Assembly: GCA_903908605.1 (NCBI GenBank)
Contig: CAIVSQ010000011.1
Span: 1-55,432, forward strand
DNA from: an uncultured Anaerolineae bacterium
GTDB taxonomy: Bacteria > Chloroflexota > Anaerolineae > Anaerolineales > Villigracilaceae
Length of the DNA: 55,432 nucleotides
Reading direction: 5' to 3'
Below the pieces are notes generated by a model. The model saw nothing but the letters and a program-made list of their open reading frames with translations, ran no database searches and had not been told where the DNA came from. Made by a program: the position numbers and the translations under genes. Of this stretch, positions 50,542 through 53,881 are shown piece after piece (within the stretch, counting starts at the first letter, position 1; every line of letters begins with the position of its first letter).

Positions 50542-50547
50542 TAAAAT
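50542..50547 (+). promoter_or_regulatory. Candidate -10 of the metG leader transcript
   Basis: TAAAAT ends 7 bases before ATG 50555. The best upstream -35 match, TTGCAA (50515-50520), is 21 bases away, too far for this hexamer but 18 bases from the overlapping TAGTAA. Confidence 0.35.
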
Positions 50548-50554
50548 ATTGCCC

Positions 50555-50617
50555 ATGCAAAAAATATTCGTTTCGATGTCCATGCCCAGGCTGCGCTTGC
50601 AGTTCATTGCCAGATGA
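50555..50617 (+). CDS. Putative 20-codon leader peptide upstream of metG
   Basis: ATG 50555 to TGA 50615-50617. The peptide has Met at positions 1, 8 and 10 (VSMSM) and is Arg/Leu-rich afterwards. The stop codon lies at the base of the first leader hairpin. There is no Shine-Dalgarno; the -10 box 7 bases upstream would give a leaderless start. Its Met codons make it a candidate sensor of charged Met-tRNA for metG, but coding is not proven. Confidence 0.35.
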   Translation: MQKIFVSMSMPRLRLQFIAR

Positions 50618-50640
50618 ACTGCGGGACGGTTTAGGCCGTC
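50599..50640 (+). promoter_or_regulatory. Hairpins of the metG leader
   Basis: Hairpin A: GCAGTTCA (50599-50606) with TGAACTGC (50615-50622), loop TTGCCAGA. Hairpin B: GACGG (50625-50629) with CCGTC (50636-50640). The loop segment GCCAG (50609-50613) is complementary to CTGGC (50653-50657) in the 5' arm of the terminator that follows, so alternative pairing is possible. Confidence 0.5.
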
Positions 50641-50650
50641 TGACGAACCC

Positions 50651-50677
50651 TGCTGGCGAAAGCCAGCATTTTTCTTT
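50651..50677 (+). terminator. Intrinsic terminator in the metG leader
   Basis: TGCTGGC, tetraloop GAAA, GCCAGCA, then TTTTTCTTT. It lies 62 bases before metG and about 100 bases into the leader transcript. Confidence 0.85.
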
Positions 50678-50738
50678 AATAGCTAATCTAAAATTTCCAA
50701 ATTTTTGAGCGAAATATCTCGCTTACCCGGAGGAACCC

Positions 50739-52526
50739 ATGCCCGAAAATATCTTGATTGCCATTGCCTGGCCATACGCCAACGCTGAAATTCACGTTGG
50801 CAATATCACCGGCTCGCACCTGCCAGGTGATATTGTCGCGCGCTTCCATCGTCTTAAGGGCGATCACGTCCTGATGGTCAGCGGCACTGATTCGCACGGT
50901 ACCCCGGTGACCATTGCCGCTGAAAAAGAAGGCGTGCCGGTCGAATCCGTCTATAAGAAATACCACAAAGGTTTCCTGGAACTTTTTCAGCAGGCCGGTA
51001 TTACCTATGACCTTTTCACCTCCACCCATACCCAAAATCATTTCAAGGTATCGCAGAGTATTTTCCTGGCCCTCAAGAAGAACGGTTTCCTCTTCACCAA
51101 GGTTGAACCGCAATGGTATTCTCCTTCGGCCGGTAAGTTCCTGCCCGACCGGTTTGTGGAAGGCACCTGCTATATTTGCGGCTATAAGGAAGCCCGCTCT
51201 GACCAATGCGACCAGTGCGGTAATGTGCTCGAGGCTGCCAAACTGATTACCCCGCGCTCGAAGGTGGATGGTTCCACGCCGGTGCTGCGCGATACAGAAC
51301 ACTTTTATATTGATCTCTCCAAGTTGGAGCCCGATGTCAAGAATTTCCTGCGAGAACGTTCCGCACATATGCGTGACACGGTTCTGGGTGAATCGCTTGG
51401 CAAAATTGAGGCTGAAGGGCTCAAACCGCGCCCGATCACCCGCGACCTGGACTGGGGTATCCCCGTGCCGGTTGAGGGTTGGGATGGCAAGTGCCTGTAC
51501 GTCTGGTTTGAAGCCGTCATCGGTTATCTTTCGGCAGCCATTGAGTGGAGCCAGGTTTCCGAAGGTGATTGGAAGGATTGGTGGGTCAACCCGGCTGCCA
51601 AGCATTATCATTTTATCGGCAAGGACAATATTTTCTTCCACACCTCGCTTTGGCCGGCTCAGTTGATGGGGGTGAGTGATCAGTTTGTTGAAATCTTCAC
51701 GGGTGAGAAGGGTGTGCGCCTGACCCTGCCTTATGATGTGCCCGCCAACCAATTCATGAACATGGAAGGCCAGAAGATCAGCGGTTCACATCATTGGGGC
51801 GTGTGGGGATTGGATTTCCTCTCGCGTTATGACCCCGATGCGCTGCGTTATTACCTGACGGTCAACATGCCCGAAAACAAGGACAGCGATTGGGATTGGT
51901 CCGAGTTTGTTACCCTGAACAACAACCAACTGGTGGCTACCTGGGGTAACCTGGCCAACCGTATGCTGTCTTTTAGCTACAAGACTTGGGAGGGTCACGT
52001 ACCCGCCATCGACCCGGCCAACCTGCGCGAGGCTGACCTGGCCCTGCTGGCAACGATTGAGGCCGGCTTTGAATCGGTTGGCAAGGAATTGGATTCAGTC
52101 CACCTGCGCGCTGCGCTGGGTGAGGCCATGCGGCTTTCCACCGAGGTCAACCGCTATATCGACGCCAACGCACCCTGGACCAGTATCAAGACCGACCGTG
52201 AAGCCGCCGCGCTGACCGTGTACACCGCGCTCAAGGCGATTGATTCACTCAAGGTGTTGTTTGCACCGGTTCTACCTTTCGCCAGCGAGAAACTGCACGT
52301 TATCTTTGGGTACAGCAATCCACTGTTCGGCGAGCAGTACGTCGAGACCATCCAGGATTCTCTCGGCGAGCACACAGGCTTGCGCTATCGCGCGCCTGAA
52401 GGCCAGGCCCCGGCCTGGAAACCGAGCGATCTTCAGCCAGGGCAGGCGCTGAACCAGCCCTTGCCGCTCTTCAAGAAGCTGGAAGAAAAAGTAGCCATAG
52501 AGGAACGTGCCCGGTTGGGCAATTAA
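50739..52526 (+). CDS. metG: Methionyl-tRNA synthetase
   Basis: Class I synthetase charging tRNA-Met. 595 residues. The HIGH motif reads HVGN (19-22), GTDSHGTP follows, and a double-knuckle zinc site C-x2-C / C-x2-C begins at Cys144 (CYICG, CDQCG). The adenylate-binding FIGKDNIFFH is normal. The KMSKS loop reads KISGS (346-350), lacking the second Lys. The C-terminal helical anticodon domain (NNNQLVATWGNLANR) is present; no EMAPII-like extension. GGAGG lies 7-8 bases before the ATG. It is preceded by a terminator-containing leader that probably controls expression. Confidence 0.96.
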   Translation: MPENILIAIAWPYANAEIHVGNITGSHLPGDIVARFHRLKGDHVLMVSGTDSHGTPVTIAAEKEGVPVESVYKKYHKGFLELFQQAGITYDLFTSTHTQNHFKVSQSIFLALKKNGFLFTKVEPQWYSPSAGKFLPDRFVEGTCYICGYKEARSDQCDQCGNVLEAAKLITPRSKVDGSTPVLRDTEHFYIDLSKLEPDVKNFLRERSAHMRDTVLGESLGKIEAEGLKPRPITRDLDWGIPVPVEGWDGKCLYVWFEAVIGYLSAAIEWSQVSEGDWKDWWVNPAAKHYHFIGKDNIFFHTSLWPAQLMGVSDQFVEIFTGEKGVRLTLPYDVPANQFMNMEGQKISGSHHWGVWGLDFLSRYDPDALRYYLTVNMPENKDSDWDWSEFVTLNNNQLVATWGNLANRMLSFSYKTWEGHVPAIDPANLREADLALLATIEAGFESVGKELDSVHLRAALGEAMRLSTEVNRYIDANAPWTSIKTDREAAALTVYTALKAIDSLKVLFAPVLPFASEKLHVIFGYSNPLFGEQYVETIQDSLGEHTGLRYRAPEGQAPAWKPSDLQPGQALNQPLPLFKKLEEKVAIEERARLGN

Positions 52527-52969: not shown

Positions 52970-53881
52970 ATGAGTAACCTCGACATTGATAACAGCCATC
53001 TTTCGGCGGCTCAACAAACAAGATTAAGCTGGACCAAATTCATACCGGCGTATGATCAACTTCCGCCGGCCTACCAAAAGGATTACGATGCGCTTTTTAC
53101 GGTGGGCAGCAAGTTCCCCTACACGCTTTGGACTCCGGGCTATGCAGATTTACTAAAACCAGTCCCCGAAAGACTGATATGTTGCGCGGAAGAGTCTATG
53201 ACCATTTTTGAAAAACGCGGCGAAAAAATCCGGAACGTCTACATGAAATATGATTCGATCAATTACATTGAGAATGGAATTGTGTTGTTGCATTCCTGGT
53301 TGACCATTTTTGGAATCGACCAGAACGGAGAAACCGCAGCTCCAAGTATCCGCTACAACACGGTTAGCGAGGAATTGCTCCTGCCAGTTATAGCCAGCCT
53401 GCGCGCCATCCCCAACTTGCAGAGTGGCAGCCAGCTTGAGGTTGAAAAATCCAGGTTCAATTATTTGAGCAATATCAATTTTAAATTTATGAACTATGGT
53501 CTGCAAAGTATTCGAAACGGGGACCAGGTTTTGAAAATTATGATGCAGGCTGAAATTCGCAAGGAAATTGTGCGAATTTTAGGGAAAAGTTTTTCAAAAC
53601 AGGTTACCCCGGCACATATTTTTATCCTGACCACGGACGAGATTATCAGCATCCGCAACACCGGCAAGGTTTCGACCTATGGCGGTATTTGGAATTACAT
53701 ACCAAGAAAAAATATATGCTCCGTTTCACTTGCTAACGATGACAATGGCAGGTTTATTCTAGGTCTGCAGTTCCAATCAGGCCAGCAAATCAGCATGATC
53801 TATGATGAATCTCAAAAATCGGAGATCGAAAATTTGCGGGATGTAATCCGTGCCGATTTATCAGAGACAGTTGTGGCCTAA
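52970..53881 (+). CDS. Hypothetical protein with two PH-like halves
   Basis: Not recognised as a named family. 303 residues, no signal peptide or membrane segment. The C-terminal part (residues about 195-300) has the strand pattern of bacterial PH-like domains: HIFILTTDEIISIRN, then IPRKNICSVSL, FILGLQFQSGQQISMIYD and a final helix SEIENLRDVI. Residues about 65-115 (ERLICCAEESMTIFEK, YMKYDSINYIENGIVLLHSWLTIFG) show a similar pattern, so it may be a tandem. The gene is visibly AT-richer than its neighbours, hinting at later acquisition. The ribosome binding site is weak. Confidence 0.65.
   Translation: MSNLDIDNSHLSAAQQTRLSWTKFIPAYDQLPPAYQKDYDALFTVGSKFPYTLWTPGYADLLKPVPERLICCAEESMTIFEKRGEKIRNVYMKYDSINYIENGIVLLHSWLTIFGIDQNGETAAPSIRYNTVSEELLLPVIASLRAIPNLQSGSQLEVEKSRFNYLSNINFKFMNYGLQSIRNGDQVLKIMMQAEIRKEIVRILGKSFSKQVTPAHIFILTTDEIISIRNTGKVSTYGGIWNYIPRKNICSVSLANDDNGRFILGLQFQSGQQISMIYDESQKSEIENLRDVIRADLSETVVA

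Follow-up and report, generated by a model that had tools for sequence, protein, structure and literature searches.

A predicted methionine-sensing transcription attenuator with a Met-rich leader ORF upstream of metG in Anaerolineae

Results

The metG gene of an uncultured Anaerolineae bacterium, located in the window (the whole stretch of 55,432 nucleotides that was analysed), is very probably controlled by a ribosome-mediated transcription attenuator that senses charged Met-tRNA. The sequences support a short leader ORF, its enrichment in Met codons, the spacing of these codons, an intrinsic terminator and complementarity between the leader and the terminator.

All parts of the leader are on the + strand of the window. 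The -10 hexamer TAAAAT (50542-50547) is preceded by a conserved TAG, and 7 nt on starts a leader ORF of 20 codons (MQKIFVSMSMPRLRLQFIAR and a stop codon, 50555-50617), which has no SD and is putatively leaderless with its ATG at about +1. No well-placed -35 stands out in the window, its own -35 being weak. The putative regulatory Met codons are codon 8 (50576-50578), 23 nt upstream of hairpin 1, and codon 10 (50582-50584), 17 nt upstream of its first pair. Hairpin 1 (GCAGUUCA-UUGCCAGA-UGAACUGC, 50599-50622) has an 8-bp core kept in 16 loci, and the first base of its 3' arm is the start of the stop codon UGA (50615-50617). Its loop carries GCCAG (50609-50613), the proposed 5' strand of an antiterminator, which is complementary to CTGGC in the 5' arm of the terminator (50653-50657). 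In the window sequence alone, the loop can close further into a 10-bp stem with a 4-nt GCCA loop. Hairpin 2 (GACGG-UUUAGG-CCGUC, 50625-50640) is a predicted stem, and one of its pairs is A-U in the window, G-C in locus L003 and a mismatch in most other loci.

The intrinsic terminator UGCUGGC-GAAA-GCCAGCA (50651-50668) is followed by a U-run (50669-50676), the end of which is 62 nt from the ATG of the proposed regulated gene (50739-52526, with SD GGAGG at 50729-50733). This gene was identified as metG, encoding methionyl-tRNA synthetase, by TIGR00398 above cut-off and a match to PF09334. The 201-nt leader region is more stably folded than its dinucleotide shuffles (z -3.7). A preliminary description of this DNA had listed the -10 box, the ORF with Met codons 8 and 10, both hairpins, the GAAA-loop terminator and the complementary GCCAG and CTGGC, and all of these were found again at the same positions. 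Downstream of metG is an ORF of 303 residues (52970-53881, +) with no match in Pfam or NCBIfam.

With 2 Met among 19 internal codons, the ORF in the window is not significantly enriched by itself (P about 0.08); the significance of the enrichment comes from the relatives. A MetG was identified in 193 of 200 relatives, and 130 upstream regions from order-level relatives were oriented and scanned for terminators and short ORFs. Leaders were selected without counting Met, by an ATG 4-9 nt after TANNNT, a length of 14-60 codons and a stop codon 5-60 nt before a terminator. Such selection demands a -10 box and gave 104 of the 130 metG upstream regions, with the short ORF 16-45 nt ahead of the intrinsic terminator. 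Met constitutes 15.6% of the 2753 internal residues in these leaders, and 430 internal ATG are in frame, compared to 40 out of frame (both other frames together) and 38 expected from shuffling, counts that cover related genomes, mostly MAGs, which are not independent of each other. No other codon is enriched more than 2.5-fold. Only 16 of the 430 Met codons fall within the final eight codons of the ORF; a ribosome stalled there would mask the ORF tail.

The peptide sequence is not conserved apart from the Met codons and the tail, and the tail is explained by RNA pairing. This bears on the possibility that the ORF is a gene for a small functional peptide and that metG has a separate promoter. 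The ORF does have a promoter and a terminator of its own, but the lack of conservation, the complementarity of terminator arm and tail, and a promoter scan that found none between the terminator and metG make a peptide gene very unlikely. About nine extra codons (TLAPGASAG-like) are inserted in frame between Met codons in the leader ORFs of several genera (L025, L029, L057, L079, L083 and L084).

For the start of transcription, 103 leaders were picked by Met content and terminator only, with no promoter criterion. The distance from the end of the -10 hexamer to the leader ATG is 6-7 nt in 75 of them, and these 75 have TTGMCA 17 nt upstream of the -10. With this spacing, transcription should begin at the A of the ATG or at a neighbouring base, and the leader is probably read as a leaderless mRNA.

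Some families of the class outside the order also have similar leaders (L169-L171, L178, L185, L196, L197 and L207, among others), and named records with the leader include Anaerolinea sp. and uncultured Anaerolineales. No arrangement of a Met-rich ORF and a terminator was found in 20 metG upstream regions from other Chloroflexota classes. Two genomes in the genus of the window (L005 and L006) have kept the -10 box and lost both the leader ORF and the terminator. No attenuator was seen in one family of the order (L110, L112, L113 and L116), where a -10-like GTATACT just before the metG ATG suggests that metG itself is leaderless.

The leaders separate into two classes by the terminator arm. 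The larger class has the arm GCUGUCC (83 loci) and an ORF tail of GGANAGC or GGACAGC. In partition function calculations, pairing between arm and tail is 0.73 with a ribosome on the last Met and 0.23 without a ribosome, the low value arising since a protector near the ORF start (GCUUUCC, in the codons of xAFP) pairs with the tail. For a ribosome at the stop, the arm pairs with upstream sequence of any kind at a total of 0.24. In the whole set of 115 loci tested, the arm pairs with ORF bases at 0.60 compared to 0.31 in shuffles. The protector also pairs with the tail more than shuffles do, with compensatory cases in L083 (GCCUUCCC with GGAAGGC) and L069 and a permutation result of 0.001, both of which ignore kinship. 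The terminator 5' arm is invariant in 83 of 83 loci and the 3' arm varies in 31, the pattern to expect of a 5' arm that pairs with two partners, although this comparison was devised post hoc with the data already in view. Duplex energies of own versus swapped arms and tails were not discriminating, the arms being too short and GC-rich.

These models predict a mutually exclusive antiterminator that uses the terminator 5' arm, with the classical 1:2/2:3/3:4 segments in most relatives. In 46 of 51 aligned loci (for example L023), the 2:3 helix has a conserved central A-G or G-G mismatch, which perhaps keeps this helix weaker than the protector and the terminator. The earlier proposal that a ribosome stalled on Met frees the ORF tail, and that one at the stop masks it, agrees with the modelled states of 81 relatives in this class. 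The terminator wins in every ribosome state in the equilibrium models, so control would be kinetic, as it is in known attenuators.

The window belongs to the smaller class with the arm CUGGC, where hairpin 1 is common to 16 loci from seven genera in one family. A pattern search for hairpin 1 in 152 genomes of the family gave matches in 16 genomes, exactly once each. Fifteen of these are metG leaders already in the set, and the remaining one (G062) likewise lies before metG; the motif was found only before metG in the family genomes searched. The last Met codon precedes the first hairpin 1 pair by 14 or 17 nt in 13 of 15 loci, a regularity looked for post hoc with the data in view. From ribosome footprints, the front edge of a ribosome whose A site is at the Met codon should be about there, and the fixed spacing fits the stall logic that had been put forward for this leader. 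The terminator 5' arm is GCUGGC in 15 of 16 loci, and the 3' arm drifts, by G-U in 7 of 16.

The preliminary description had also suggested that GCCAG and CTGGC might form an antiterminator. The complementarity holds, but nested folding predicts no antiterminator for this class, and in minimum free energy folds of the window's leader, computed for a stalled ribosome, hairpin 1 and the terminator form side by side. As GCCAG is in a hairpin loop, an antiterminator here would need a pseudoknot, which is geometrically plausible. Given that the leader is an attenuator, we consider pairing of loop and arm marginally probable as the mechanism in this class. GCCAG persists together with its complement in L004, from the genus of the window. 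This locus has lost hairpin 1 and has a different frame, and a nested CGCCAG:CUGGCG antiterminator is predicted for it.

It is possible, though on the doubtful side, that the same attenuator in this class switches without GCCAG:CUGGC and that other structures, such as UGUCC of the Met region paired with GGGAC or UGAAC paired with the GUUCA next to hairpin 2, or coupling between ribosome and RNA polymerase, decide the outcome. The absence of a nested antiterminator accords with such a switch, as does an alternative helix (columns 27-32 with 43-48) that pairs in 89.5% of the cells and has an end pair changing from AU to GC. Several members also carry AUGUCCCGC, complementary to GCGGGAC, and an alternative helix of the 3' arm with GUUCA is also conserved. 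However, GCCAG is the same in all 16 aligned loci even though synonymous changes would be allowed in its codons, and it complements the terminator arm in all 16 with a single G-U; its persistence in L004 without hairpin 1 also speaks for a role of GCCAG.

An alignment of metG upstream regions had been proposed as a check. It confirmed a conserved Met-rich ORF, but helix 1 and the helix between loop and arm have almost no covariation, which is weak because these helices hardly vary. Leaders that kept the stems and lost the ORF or its Met codons had been expected if the peptide model were wrong; the opposite was seen, with the Met-rich ORF kept and the stems differing between the two classes.

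The main alternative had been a novel structured ligand-binding leader; we considered a leader upstream of metG that binds a ligand or a protein, the ORF being incidental. In the window's class, GCGGGACGG and hairpin 1 are strongly conserved in sequence, as might be expected of such a leader. A known riboswitch or ncRNA family would also have spoken against the peptide model, but Rfam gave no match in the window at gathering score and none in the region at E<=5. The feature shared across classes is an in-frame Met-rich ORF before a terminator rather than one structure, and this makes a riboswitch or protein-binding leader highly improbable.

At the sensitivity of Rfam, a T-box reading uncharged tRNA-Met directly is hardly credible. 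The sister synthetase genes pheS and ileS have T-boxes in the same genome (Rfam matches L287:2632-2881 and L311:4057-4304, respectively, both on the - strand), and these loci were matched in the same run in which RF00230 gave no match in the window, where no T-box core sequence had been seen earlier, or at any metG locus searched, where the conserved feature is the ORF. T-box-like terminators below the gathering score were seen at leuS loci in the genus of the window. No leader ORF comparable to that of metG was found before trpS, pheS, leuS or ileS in related genomes. The genome of the window has two trpS-type genes (G000 contigs C57 and C491), and so do several relatives. A full-length Rfam match to the cspA thermoregulator was seen in a Chloroflexota genome (L020:3835-4259, -), possibly due to contamination or to a wider family.

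Discussion

The comparison favours a ribosome-mediated attenuator, and the interpretation in the preliminary description is supported as right on nearly every point. As in classical attenuators, cognate codons are enriched over the 104 leaders, an intrinsic terminator is predicted between the ORF and the gene, and the placement of the putative control codons suits a stall that would expose the antiterminator and a stop that would hide it, as seen from their spacing to hairpin 1 and from the last eight codons, which are nearly free of Met.

In the mechanism that we propose, the RNA would start at or beside the leader AUG, as judged from the spacing to the -10, and a ribosome would translate the 20-codon leader with its in-frame Met codons. 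When Met-tRNA is plentiful, the ribosome at the stop would cover the GCCAG tail and open hairpin 1, the CUGGC/GCCAG terminator would form and transcription would stop about 62 nt before metG. When Met-tRNA is scarce, the ribosome would stall on Met 8 or 10 with its leading edge just before hairpin 1, which would fold, and the exposed GCCAG would pair with the emerging CUGGC so that RNA polymerase continues into metG. Regulation in the window's class would need both a pseudoknot and kinetic control. In most relatives, the ORF tail GGANAGC would take over from GCCAG by pairing with the terminator arm GCUGUCC in a nested helix, a protector segment being present close to where the ORF begins. We infer the transcription start, the pseudoknot in the window's class and the effect of Met-tRNA.

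A classical attenuator of an aminoacyl-tRNA synthetase is that of pheST in E. coli. Classical attenuators have also been predicted for trpS and leuS in Streptomyces, in an analysis that saw no methionine element there (PMC1262725). The metG leader resembles these three in having a leader peptide with cognate codons, an intrinsic terminator, a putative antiterminator between ORF tail and terminator arm and a synthetase gene downstream. It differs in that the codon is Met, which is also the start codon, in being probably leaderless, in its occurrence in Anaerolineae (Chloroflexota) and in the pseudoknot that the window's class would need. The LEU element of leuA in Actinobacteria likewise joins a leader peptide that has regulatory codons to a predicted pseudoknot (PMC1262725).

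T-boxes are known in Chloroflexi (PMC2494555, PMC3766115). As is proposed for the metG leader, the T-box leaders (RF00230) of pheS and ileS match synthetase supply to tRNA charging by means of a terminator, but they bind uncharged tRNA directly without translation, and metG has no T-box.

Leaderless short ORFs with polycysteine in mycobacteria were reportedly described by Canestrari et al. 2020. As they are cited in PMC9031893, these ORFs attenuate downstream genes. By that account, these are short leaderless ORFs with codons for the sensed amino acid and act by attenuation, features that the metG leader probably shares, but they act on translation of downstream cysteine genes, whereas the element here has an intrinsic terminator and precedes metG. 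Neither a Met-specific leader-peptide attenuator nor attenuation of metG or in Anaerolineae was found in the open literature searched.

Conclusions

Methionine is a special case for an attenuator because the same codon starts every ORF. If the leader is indeed leaderless, both the start codon and the sensor codons need Met-tRNA, and initiator and elongator charging would thus be gauged together. Our tentative reading of the window's class, held with rather less than even confidence, is an attenuator of this kind with an H-type pseudoknot antiterminator that is derived from, or alternates with, a nested one within one genus. The element would be a sensor of Met-tRNA charging that can be read from sequence in the mostly uncultured Anaerolineae, beside the T-boxes of other synthetases, and the same device is seen in about a hundred related Anaerolineae genomes. 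Two antiterminator designs for one gene in one genus would constitute a natural experiment in attenuator evolution.
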